From assembly GCF_009846865.1 (NCBI RefSeq), contig NZ_WUWN01000007.1:62001-126000 (forward strand): a stretch of DNA of 64,000 nt, given 5' to 3'. Below, piece by piece: positions 1-54,555 of the stretch. Below the pieces are notes generated by a model, which ran no database searches, was not told the DNA's origin, and worked only from the letters and a program-made list of their open reading frames with translations. The DNA comes from Puerhibacterium puerhi (GTDB lineage: Bacteria > Actinomycetota > Actinomycetes > Actinomycetales > Cellulomonadaceae). How positions within the stretch are numbered: position 1 is the stretch's first letter; the number at the start of each line of letters is the position of its first letter. The position numbers and the translations under genes were made by a program.

Positions 1-2225
1 TCGCCGCCGCCCTCGAGCAGGCCCTGCTGTGGGACGCCGGCGAGCCGGGCACCCCTGACCTTCGCGCCGTCCCGGGCCTCGGGGAGGTCCTGGGCCCCTA
101 CCCCGCGGGGCTCGGCCCGCACCGGGACGCCGGATCCCGTCAGGGTTCGTTCCGGCAAGCGCCCGATGACGGAACCGACCCTGACGGGATCGCGGCGCTC
201 GACGACCTGCCGCCCGGTGCCCGCGAGGTGCTCGACGCGCTCACCTGGGGTCCGCCGGTCGGCGTCGTGCCGCCGGCGGGCTCGGCGCCGCGCCGCGCCG
301 TGGACGCCCTGGTCGAGGCCGGGCTGCTGCAGCGCGCCGACGCCCGCACCGTGGTGCTGCCCCGGGACGTCGGGCTGGCGCTGCGCGGCGGGCGCACCCA
401 CCGCGACCCGCGCCTGGAGCCGCCGCGCGCCGAGGTGCGGGAGGTGCCCGCGCCCACCGCGGACGCCGAGGCCGCGAGCGCCGCGCTGGAGGTCGTGCGG
501 CTGGTCGACGCGCTGATCGACCTGTGGGACGAGGCGCCGCCGTCGGTGCTGCGCGCGGGCGGTCTCGGCGTGCGCGACGTGCGTCGGGCCGCGCAGGCGC
601 TGGGCGTCGACGAGGCGACGGCGGCCATCGTCGTCGAGCTGGCCGCCTCCGCGGAGCTGGTGGCCGACGACGGCGAGGCGCCGCCGTCGTACGTGCCCAC
701 CACCCGCGCCGACGCGTGGGCCGACGCCGACGAGGCCGACCGCTGGGCGATGCTGGCCGCCGCCTGGGCCGCCTCGCGCCGCACGCCGTGGCGGGCGGGG
801 TCGCGGGACGACAAGGGCACGGTCCGTGCCCCGCTGTCGCCGGACCTGCACCGGGCGTGGGTGCCGCGGCTGCGGGCGCAGGTGCTCGAGGCCCTGGCCG
901 GGCAGCCGGGCGCGCCGCTGACCGCCGCCGACGTGCTGGCGGTGCTGGCCTGGCGCACGCCGCGCGCCGTCCCGCCGGAGGCCGCCGTGGAGGGCCTGCT
1001 GCGCGAGGCGGCGCTGCTCGGCGCCACCGGGGCGGGCGCGCTGGCCGGGCCGGGCCGCGCCCTGCTCGCCCTCGTGTCAGGACCAGCGCAGGGCATGGCC
1101 GGCGCCGGTACTGACAGCCCGGCGTTCGCACGCGGTGTGTCAGCAGCAGCGCACGGTATGGCCGGCGCTGGTTCTGACGATCCGCGGGAGCGGGATGCCG
1201 ACGAGCCGGTCGACCTCGTCGAGGCGCTGCGCGCCGTGCTGCCCGCCGAGGTGGAGGAGGTGCTGCTGCAGGGCGACCTCACCGGCATCGTGCCCGGCCG
1301 CCCGTCGCGCCCGCTGGCCCGGCTGCTGGAGCGCACCGCGGACGCCGAGTCGCGGGGCGCGGCCACCACCGTGCGGTTCTCGGCGTCGTCGGTCACCCGT
1401 GCCCTCGACCTCGGCGCCACCGCCGACGAGCTGCTCGCCGAGCTCGCCGCCCGCTCCCCCGTCCCCGTGCCGCAGCCGCTGGAGTACCTGGTGCGCGACA
1501 CCGCGCGGCGGCACGCGGCGCTGCGGGTCGGCTCGGCCGGCTCGTACGTGCGGGCCGCCGACCCGGCGGTGCTGGCCGGGCTGGCCGAGGACCCGCGGCT
1601 GGCGTCGCTCGGCCTGGTGCGCCTGGCCCCGACAGTCCTGGCCGCCGCCGTCCCGGCGGCCGAGCTGCACGCCGCGTTGCGCGAGCGGGGACTGCTCGCC
1701 GCGCTCGAGGGCCCCGACGGGCGACCGCTGGGCCGCCTGCGCCGCCCGCCGCGCGTGGACCGGGCGGGCCGGCGCGCCGGCGCGCCCGTGGCGACGTCGG
1801 CGGTCACGGACGACGGCCGACGGGCGCTGGTGGAGCGCCTGCGCGCCGCCGAGGCCGGCGACGGACGGGGCCGCGGCCCGTTCCCCGGCACGGCCACCGG
1901 CAACGGCGGAGCCCTCGGCGCCAGCAGGACGACGGCCCTGGCCGCGGGCCGGCGCCCCGACGACGACGCGGACGCGACCGCCGTCGACCGGCTGCGCTCC
2001 ATGTCCGCCGCGGCCGGCGACGCCCTGGCCCTGCTGCGCGAGGCGGCGCGCGACGGCGAGCAGGTGTGGGTCGAGCTCGTCGACGCCCACGGCACCCCGG
2101 CGCGGCGCAAGCTCCGGCCGCTGAAGGTCGAGGGCGGCCGGCTGCGCGCCCTGGACCCGGCGCGCGAGGCCGAGCTCACCGTGGCGGTGCACCGCATCGC
2201 GGCGGTGGAGCCGGCCGAGCCCTAG
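1..2225 (+). CDS. Helicase-associated (Helicase_C_3-type) protein, 5' end outside window
   Basis: The frame is open from base 3 to a TAG at 2223-2225, so at least 740 residues are present and the true start lies upstream of the window. The sequence resembles the actinobacterial 'helicase-associated domain' proteins that accompany XPB helicases. These are winged-helix-rich, very Ala/Leu/Arg-rich proteins without Walker motifs, thought to partner a DNA repair helicase; an XPB helicase follows 2 kb downstream, which fits. The frame contains three in-frame palindromic insertions (134-190, 1075-1116 and 1138-1179) that read through as low-complexity peptide such as GMAGAGTDSP and GMAGAGSDDP. They fall in linker-like segments. 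The stop codon overlaps the stop of the convergent gene within a single CTAG. A biochemical role has not been shown from sequence. Confidence 0.75.
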   Translation, partial: AAALEQALLWDAGEPGTPDLRAVPGLGEVLGPYPAGLGPHRDAGSRQGSFRQAPDDGTDPDGIAALDDLPPGAREVLDALTWGPPVGVVPPAGSAPRRAVDALVEAGLLQRADARTVVLPRDVGLALRGGRTHRDPRLEPPRAEVREVPAPTADAEAASAALEVVRLVDALIDLWDEAPPSVLRAGGLGVRDVRRAAQALGVDEATAAIVVELAASAELVADDGEAPPSYVPTTRADAWADADEADRWAMLAAAWAASRRTPWRAGSRDDKGTVRAPLSPDLHRAWVPRLRAQVLEALAGQPGAPLTAADVLAVLAWRTPRAVPPEAAVEGLLREAALLGATGAGALAGPGRALLALVSGPAQGMAGAGTDSPAFARGVSAAAHGMAGAGSDDPRERDADEPVDLVEALRAVLPAEVEEVLLQGDLTGIVPGRPSRPLARLLERTADAESRGAATTVRFSASSVTRALDLGATADELLAELAARSPVPVPQPLEYLVRDTARRHAALRVGSAGSYVRAADPAVLAGLAEDPRLASLGLVRLAPTVLAAAVPAAELHAALRERGLLAALEGPDGRPLGRLRRPPRVDRAGRRAGAPVATSAVTDDGRRALVERLRAAEAGDGRGRGPFPGTATGNGGALGASRTTALAAGRRPDDDADATAVDRLRSMSAAAGDALALLREAARDGEQVWVELVDAHGTPARRKLRPLKVEGGRLRALDPAREAELTVAVHRIAAVEPAEP
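134..190. repeat. Family B palindromic repeat, copy 1 (in-coding)
   Basis: Inverted repeat with 21-base arms (134-154 and 170-190, two mismatches) and a 15-base loop. The arm core CGTCAGGGTTCGTTCCG matches the perfect palindrome at 21464-21512 except for two bases. It spans 19 codons and keeps the host reading frame open. Confidence 0.85.
1075..1116. repeat. Family A palindromic repeat, copy 1 (in-coding)
   Basis: 42-base near-palindrome (21-base arms, four mismatches) beginning TGTCAG and ending CTGACA, with a central GGGCATGGCC. It matches the intergenic copies at 19497-19538, 19559-19600 and 54514-54555. It is read in frame by the host gene. Confidence 0.88.
1138..1179. repeat. Family A palindromic repeat, copy 2 (in-coding)
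   Basis: Second 42-base unit, starting exactly 63 bases (21 codons) after copy 1, so the pair is a tandem arrangement that preserves frame. It begins TGTCAGCAGCAGCGCA and ends GGTTCTGACG, with more mismatches to the consensus than the intergenic copies. Confidence 0.85.
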
Positions 2226-5894: not shown

Positions 5895-5910
5895 CGGGCA
5901 CGCCCGCCCC

Positions 5911-5999
5911 GTGAGGTCGGCACCTCGTCGTGAGTTCGGCACCTCGTCGTGAGCTCGGCAGCCCGAGGTGCCGACCTCACGACGAAGTGCCGAGCTCAC
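5911..5999. repeat. Family C inverted-repeat array (19-base units)
   Basis: Forward units GTGAGGTCGGCACCTCGTC (5911-5929) and GTGAGTTCGGCACCTCGTC (5930-5948), plus a truncated third (5949-5960), face two reverse units (5964-5980 and 5981-5999). The array can fold into a long hairpin between xpb and the TPM-domain gene, which both read rightward. It may terminate xpb transcription, although there is no U-tract. Confidence 0.85.
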
Positions 6000-6097
6000 G
6001 GCCGGCAGTCGACGCCGGACCCCGGCACCCCGCCTGAGCGCGGGTTTCACCACGGGGGCGAATTGCGCTCCCCCAGGTCGGGCGGGACGATCGGGAC

Positions 6098-9160: not shown

Positions 9161-9297
9161 CGCCGAGATAGAGAGCTCTGGCGCCGAGATAGAGAGCCAC
9201 GCTCGCGAGATAGAGACCCAGGTCCGCGAGATAGAGAGGCCCCGGCCGCACGTGCGGCCGGGGCCTCTCTATCTCGGCGAGGACCTTCTCTATCTCG
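9161..9297. repeat. Family D GAGATAGAGA repeat array with 50-bp perfect palindrome
   Basis: Four forward units containing CG(C)CGAGATAGAGA start near 9161, 9182, 9204 and 9225 (period 21-22). They face two reverse units, TCTCTATCTCGGCG and TTCTCTATCTCGCG, at 9264-9280 and 9286-9299. The centre is a perfect 50-base palindrome at 9227-9276 with no loop (middle CACGTG). It lies between the convergent pspA and amidotransferase genes and would terminate both, yet the tandem units go well beyond a normal terminator. Confidence 0.9.
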
Positions 9298-9369
9298 CGA
9301 GCCGAGCTGCTGTTCCGGGCGGGCCGGTGGACTGCTCGGCGCGGGCGGGTCAGCGGCCGGTCAGGTCGG

Positions 9370-18165: not shown

Positions 18166-18320
18166 GAACTTCTCCTTGTGCGTGCGCCGCGAGGCGCCTG
18201 TCCGCCTCGTGGTGCGCCACACCCTAGTGGCCTCGGTCACAGCGGGGGAAGGACGAACTGCGACCGTGTCGCGGCAGATCACCCGCCCTGCCGCCGCCCG
18301 ACCACCCCCCCAGACGCGAT

Positions 18321-18376
18321 CCGGGTCCGTGGGGGTCCGAGACAGAAGGGTCTGTCTCGGACCCCCAGGGACCCGG
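18321..18376 (-). terminator. Terminator between LytR_C gene and cold-shock gene
   Basis: GGGGGTCCGAGACAGA (18331-18346) pairs perfectly with 18351-18366 over a 4-base loop. An outer stem CCGGGTCC / GGACCCGG extends it to 18321-18376. Confidence 0.8.
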
Positions 18377-18416
18377 AATCGGCTGCGGCGTCAGGACGGT
18401 GCGCGGAGCGCGGGCG

Positions 18417-19496: not shown

Positions 19497-19538
19497 TGTC
19501 AGTACCAGCGCACGCCATGGCCCGCGCTCGTGCTGACA
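19497..19538. repeat. Family A palindromic repeat, copy 3
   Basis: 42 bases, begins TGTCAGTACCAGCGCA, centre CGCCATGGCCC, ends TGCTGACA; four arm mismatches. It lies in the divergent DUF3263-ung intergenic region. Confidence 0.9.
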
Positions 19539-19558: not shown

Positions 19559-19600
19559 CGTCAGTACCAGCGCACGCCATGGCCTGCGCTGGTACTGACA
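19559..19600. repeat. Family A palindromic repeat, copy 4 (closest to consensus)
   Basis: 42 bases with 21-base arms and only two mismatches. The arms are CGTCAGTACCAGCGCACGCC(A) and (T)GGCCTGCGCTGGTACTGACA. Copies 3 and 4 start 62 bases apart, close to the 63 bases separating the two in-coding copies. Confidence 0.92.
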
Positions 19601-21444: not shown

Positions 21445-21463
21445 GCAGCGGCGCTGCACATCG

Positions 21464-21512
21464 CGTCAGGGTCGGTTCCGCCATCGCGACGATGGCGGAA
21501 CCGACCCTGACG
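21464..21512. repeat. Family B palindromic repeat, copy 2 (perfect hairpin)
   Basis: Perfect 23-base arms (21464-21486 and 21490-21512; CGTCAGGGTCGGTTCCGCC plus ATCG) with a 3-base loop. It lies between the SGNH gene and the oppositely oriented tRNA-Thr, where it could act as a terminator. Its arm recurs inside the first gene (134-190). Confidence 0.92.
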
Positions 21513-21545
21513 TGATTCCAGATCCGGATCCGGTCCGGGCTGCGG

Positions 21546-40123: not shown

Positions 40124-40169
40124 ACGACGAAGGGGCCGGCCTCCCGCGGGAGGCCGGCCCCTTCGTCGT
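40124..40169. terminator. 46-bp perfect palindromic bidirectional terminator
   Basis: ACGACGAAGGGGCCGGCCTC continues to position 40146 and pairs perfectly with 40147-40169 with no loop. It lies between the convergent lipoprotein and pstB genes. Confidence 0.85.
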
Positions 40170-48015: not shown

Positions 48016-48061
48016 ACGACGACGGCGGTGCTCCCCTCGAGGGGAGCACCGCCGTCGTCGT
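48016..48061. terminator. 46-bp perfect palindromic bidirectional terminator
   Basis: ACGACGACGGCGGTGCTCCC continues to 48038 and pairs perfectly with 48039-48061. It separates the convergent phoU and gpmA genes. Confidence 0.85.
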
Positions 48062-54341: not shown

Positions 54342-54450
54342 CAGCCGATCCTACCGGCGCCGGGCGGCCCCGACCGGGGTCCGGGGCGCCCGCCCGAGAG
54401 GTACGCGTCACCCTCTCGCCGGCCCGCCTTGCCGTCCCCCGGGGTGCCGG

Positions 54451-54513
54451 CACCGGCTCGTCAGCACCGGCTCCTCAGCACCGGCTTGTCAGCACCGGCT
54501 CGTCAGCACCGGC
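54451..54513. repeat. 14-base tandem repeat resembling a family A half-site
   Basis: CACCGGCTCGTCAG units (54451-54464, 54465-54478, 54479-54492, 54493-54506) with one to two changes, then CACCGGC running directly into family A copy 5. The TCGTCAGCACCGGC phase resembles the left arm TGTCAGTACCAGC of the palindrome. Confidence 0.85.
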
Positions 54514-54555
54514 TGTCAGTACGGGCGCAGGCCATGGCGTGCGCCGGTACTGACA
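54514..54555. repeat. Family A palindromic repeat, copy 5
   Basis: 42 bases, begins TGTCAGTACGGGCGCA and ends GCCGGTACTGACA; the 21-base arms have two mismatches. It lies between lysS (start 54341) and the DUF2520 gene, abutting the tandem half-site array. Confidence 0.9.

Follow-up and report, generated by a model that had tools for sequence, protein, structure and literature searches.

Rickettsia palindromic elements (RPEs) are repeats of ~150 bp (PMC10969869), and no associated transposase gene has been found for the CGTC repeats, RPE-4 and RPE-6 included (PMC3733652). Inverted repeats of 23 bp are bound in pairs by AbiEi antitoxins, the gaps differing by 10 bp between systems (PMC7319586). 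We analysed a stretch of 64,000 nucleotides of the Puerhibacterium puerhi genome (the window), in which an initial annotation had noticed two palindromes inside a helicase-associated gene and three matching copies elsewhere, and had proposed an actinobacterial counterpart of RPEs. All five copies were confirmed at their coordinates, with 0 expected from 100 shuffles, and both intragenic copies indeed lie in frame within the Helicase_C_3 ORF. They belong to family A, a 42-bp palindrome with the consensus TGTCAG-N30-CTGACA. The features of the window are given below, together with their state in JZ7 (G001), which is of the same genus as the source genome of the window (G000).

3 to 2225, forward strand: host gene, encoding a helicase-associated protein (Pfam Helicase_C_3, residues 420-542 of the part of the ORF inside the window)
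133 to 191, no strand: family B palindrome (core GTCAG..CTGAC at 139-185; also given as 138-186), in frame in the same host gene (SRQGSFRQAPDDGTDPDG)
1075 to 1116, no strand: family A palindrome 1, an in-frame part of the Helicase_C_3 gene, encoding VSGPAQGMAGAGTDS
1138 to 1179, no strand: family A palindrome 2, also in frame, its start 63 bp from that of palindrome 1, encoding VSAAAHGMAGAGSDD
18320 to 18377, no strand: family C palindrome, of the same sequence family as the flanks of the AbiEi-like gene C67:11922 (locus L285)
19497 to 19538, no strand: family A palindrome, intergenic, flanked by divergent genes; a pair is present here in JZ7 too
19559 to 19600, no strand: family A palindrome, second member of a 62-bp pair with the copy at 19497
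21460 to 21516, no strand: family B palindrome, intergenic, its core identical in JZ7
54439 to 54513, no strand: 14-bp repeats in tandem, of the half-palindrome kind (GTCAGCACCGGCTC), directly next to the family A copy at 54514
54514 to 54555, no strand: family A palindrome, intergenic; the JZ7 ortholog is a copy with compensatory changes

The host ORF comprises 909 codons from stop to stop once the upstream sequence is added. Palindromes 1 and 2 lie 63 bp apart from start to start and thus leave a gap of 21 bp. The inserted block is not universal, as the 19 family relatives that make up the comparison carry a shorter linker at the corresponding position, the JZ7 counterpart of the gene being interrupted by a contig end. 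The closest relative (76%) has GRALLPVVTGEPTADGG-AAAAL there and the window protein is ~33 residues longer, which approximates the 35 codons of the palindrome pair. Rather than the 63-base block that had been suggested, the mobile unit is probably either a single 42-bp palindrome or a phased pair of them. The same gene carries a second kind of in-frame palindrome (138-186), overlooked by the initial annotation; it belongs to family B, is unrelated to family A and is placed in another variable linker.

Family A is by no means confined to the five places in the window, as a genome-wide search by pattern and covariance model gave ~31 copies in G000. The pattern alone found 30 copies against 0 for the reversed-pattern control, and the covariance model returned 62 two-strand hits. 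GTCAG and CTGAC were invariant at the two ends in 38 copies; the TGTCAG/CTGACA ends are fixed while the inner stem varies by lineage. Pairing of the arms is kept by double changes (28 cells vs 15.7 in shuffles), and complementary flanks extend beyond the palindromes. Tandem repeats of half-palindromes adjoin full copies at 54439-54513 of the window and also at L070 2874-2920, where the half-sites look as if copied by slippage or repeated processing. Neighbouring palindromes showed preferred spacings: among 52 pairs at 160 bp or less, 29 were at 61-63 bp and 8 at 72-73 bp, the latter about one helical turn above the former, with unrelated spacer sequences. Pairs within genes are spaced by 63 or 72 bp, both multiples of 3, and intergenic pairs mostly by 62 bp.

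The intragenic copies of family A were read in one phase (NTG TCA G..) in 10 of 10 cases, as judged by a coding-potential test that is blind to the frame of the palindrome; two further intragenic calls, from genomes outside the family and probably chance matches, were left out of the ten. The copies in the window gene and in hemD, placed by homology, are in the same frame. Of the three phases, two are free of stops in nearly all of 77 copies, and the third is interrupted by a stop in 76 of them. The peptide of the used frame follows [LV]S..A-x8-(A/G)(R/G)(S/T)D; as the palindrome translations are printed in the phase that is used, they illustrate the frame and do not test it. The coding hosts are read, from their sequences, as hrpA, mfd, hemD, tilS, a putA-like gene, a molybdopterin oxidoreductase, ABC ATPases and others, and hrpA would appear to have been hit at different positions in two genera, with hemD likewise hit in two genera.

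Family A-like palindromes are patchy among relatives. Two-strand hits numbered 41 in JZ7, 59 in G005 and at least 66 in G072, beside the 62 of G000, and most other genomes had none, even inside one genus. At nine intergenic loci of G000 a palindrome is also found at the orthologous place in JZ7; the flanking sequence is replaced between the two, and a single copy in one genome may be a pair in the other. Intergenic copies occupy convergent, divergent and tandem spacers alike. A terminator reading was dropped in view of the mixed contexts and the intragenic copies. We also compared eight coding sites, selected for the presence of a palindrome in G072, with seven congeners, and found filled, empty and decayed states. 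All eight were filled in G072 and G100; the remaining congeners had an empty site, a decayed copy (hemD) or their own type of palindrome at the same place, as in G056 at the putA and oxidoreductase gene sites. No clean target-site duplication was readable at the empty sites, which fall in variable linkers. Combined together, unrelated hosts, a single frame, variable congener sites and patchiness bear out the proposed actinobacterial counterpart of RPEs in its behaviour, and RPE-like insertion of palindromes in frame is well supported.

The palindromes are tied to a particular gene. In G000 a single gene on contig C43 is bracketed by two palindrome pairs, and its homologue of 64% identity in another genus lies exactly between palindromes as well. 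Homologues of this partner gene above 50% identity were found in G000, G001, G072, G100, G056, G023, G005, G010, G047, G063 and G065. None above this threshold was found in G099, G101 and G102, which are congeners mostly without intact palindromes at the eight coding sites. The correspondence is not complete, as G018 has intact palindromes and no partner homologue was found in it, and G023 has the gene with 0 of 8 coding sites filled; G072 and G100, both with the gene and with perfect sites, may be no more than sister genomes. TGTCAG palindromes adjoin the partner gene in 11 of 11 clade members, on both sides in 10; a control for these flanks gave 5 TGTCAG palindromes in 176,648 bases, equal to the number of known window copies. 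At two loci the palindrome even supplies the stop codon of the gene (L230 1460-1501 and L231 1469-1510, C-terminus ...RSY*). Furthermore, divergent homologues are flanked by wholly different long palindromes, the left matching the right (score 15 or more), at 24 of ~69 loci, against 0 of 483 control placements. The other ~45 of 69, mostly from distant Actinomycetota, had no matching bracketing palindromes in this left-right test. Bracketing clusters on the tree, with 12 changes vs 20.5 in shuffles, and is scattered over deep clades. Dispersed palindromes best matched the flanking type of the gene resident in their lineage in 94 of 111 cases, a figure to be read with the caveat that the model which retrieved the copies of the largest groups was itself partly built on those flanking palindromes. 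No partner-gene homologues were found on plasmids or, with a single protein as query, on viral contigs, and a phage search gave one match of 37% (MT837139.1). No description of the link between palindrome and partner gene was found in the open-licence literature searched.

Similar couples occur elsewhere in the same genome. G000 has five partner-type genes (C43, C7, C34, C67:11922 and the family B gene). Family B has 6 copies in G000. Two family B palindromes separated by 1.13 kb had led us to predict a partner gene in the interval, and the gene was indeed located there, as an intact copy in JZ7 and a broken one in G000. A third palindrome of the C67 family lies at L285 3936-3998, ~1.3 kb beyond its gene. 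Two more long palindromes of the window, at 9201-9302 (GAGATAGAGAGG...) and 5909-6001 (GAGGTCGGCACCTCGTCGTGAG...), may be part of further couples; perfect palindromes with 23-bp arms at 40124-40169 and 48016-48061 are possibly ordinary terminators.

The N-terminal ~190 residues of the partner protein are AbiEi-like (PADLOC AbiEi in 18 of 18). The C-terminal part carries the motif D...VEIDG..H...D..R, as in DUF559/MTES_1575/Vsr-like endonucleases, with D240, E254, D256, D269 and R272 invariant. Profile matches of this part were weak (MTES_1575/DUF559 in some members, and the solved endonuclease-like 3hrl at E 0.26), and an AlphaFold model from the single sequence was poor (mean pLDDT 46.5), the fold search on it giving weak matches. 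At C43, the one locus inspected, no AbiEii nucleotidyltransferase toxin is adjacent, the neighbours being a PHO4 phosphate transporter and NUDIX/His_Phos genes. By analogy with AbiEi antitoxins the partner protein likely binds inverted repeats, and their binding in pairs, at gaps 10 bp apart between systems, fits the phased palindrome pairs seen here.

We take the palindromes, with their observed dispersal, frame bias, presence and absence among relatives, gene bracketing, cognate matching and spacing, to be a lineage-specific non-autonomous element, the copies of which are likely mobilised or maintained by the cognate AbiEi/nuclease-like gene in a RAYT/REP-like manner, and put the probability of this at roughly 0.68. 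The element would insert across the genome, genes included, in frame. Variable protein linkers would tolerate the insertions for two reasons: the length of 42 bp amounts to 14 codons (105 or 114 bp for a pair), and the peptide read from one frame is hydrophilic and made of small residues. A solitary gene with palindromes of one family on its two sides would own that family, and its product would join an AbiEi-type winged-helix half to a Vsr/DUF559-type nuclease half. DNA binding, cutting and mobilisation by this protein we infer: it would most likely bind the phased palindrome pair and cut at or beside it, whereby palindromes would be duplicated at further sites or stay perfect through DNA repair. 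Such a putative role in spreading or maintaining the palindromes is the simplest reading. We lean, with somewhat less confidence, to a wider claim as well, namely that there is an Actinomycetota-wide class of genetic elements in which a protein that combines an AbiEi-type winged helix with a Vsr-like nuclease, and is unrelated to known transposases, spreads or maintains its own long palindromes, one palindrome sequence per paralogue, with five couples in this genome, one gene broken, and with palindromes that repeatedly become parts of host proteins.

Other explanations have to be weighed against this. The palindromes could be operators of an AbiEi-like repressor, the flanking copies serving autoregulation and the dispersed ones forming a regulon; their spacing is phased, and AbiEi antitoxins do repress through paired 23-bp inverted repeats (PMC7319586). 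We consider this unlikely, however, as copies lie mid-gene in a fixed frame and at the 3' end of the partner gene, one of them giving the stop codon, are gained or lost between congeners and use the three kinds of spacer alike, and the proteins also have a conserved nuclease-like motif. REPs can be intragenic, many of them in replication and repair genes (PMC3733652), and a hairpin structure kept through double changes would suit a classical RAYT/REP system or a MITE of a known transposase family, with the AbiEi-like gene as a passenger. We regard this as quite improbable. The RAYT-like transposase that the initial annotation had envisaged was not found, Y1 (RAYT, PF01797) being absent from all 17 genomes searched (the control was positive in 5 of 14 known genomes), and the palindromes are tied to the AbiEi-like/Vsr-like gene instead; moreover, independent homologues bear independent palindromes on both sides, which is unexpected of a passenger. 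The compensatory changes (28 cells vs 15.7), the extended complementary flanks and the nine orthologous intergenic sites retained between two species would also agree with functional hairpins, that is, terminators or mRNA stabilisers under selection and spread by recombination. This appears very unlikely, as intragenic copies cannot act as terminators, the patchiness is family-specific and the tie to one gene family is tight.

If the mobile-element reading holds, palindromic DNA would have a second means of dispersal, unrelated to the first, with a concrete candidate enzyme for another dispersed palindrome set that lacks RAYT and is widespread and multi-copy, and the cognate code that would link protein and palindrome could be tested; part of the family now annotated as 'AbiEi antitoxins' would be reassigned. 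Palindromes that encode protein would then be known from actinobacteria as well as from Rickettsia, their putative hosts being hrpA, mfd, hemD, tilS and a putA-like gene. The likeness to RPEs is one of behaviour, as both are in-frame palindromic repeats in unrelated genes, with one preferred frame and variable among relatives, whereas here we see near-complete palindromes of 42 bp, phased pairs and a dedicated bracketed gene. RAYT-REP systems (REPtrons, GTAG REPs) are similar in that dispersed, often paired palindromes also bracket one cognate gene, some of them giving flanking genes their stop codons and some being intragenic in repair or helicase genes. They differ in the Y1/HUH protein, absent from the 17 genomes searched here, in the GTAG (or CGTC) tag at one end, in place of which we find symmetric TGTCAG/CTGACA ends, and in the partner itself, an unrelated AbiEi-like plus Vsr/DUF559-like protein. 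With AbiE type IV toxin-antitoxin systems the partner shares the AbiEi-like winged-helix region at the N-terminus and, by analogy, likely the binding of inverted repeats, but it has a nuclease-like domain at the C-terminus, no toxin beside it at C43, and palindromes that flank it on both sides and are dispersed as well. With DUF559/MTES_1575/Vsr-like endonucleases the partner shares the C-terminal motif, but here this putative nuclease part is joined to an AbiEi-like half and associated with palindromes.
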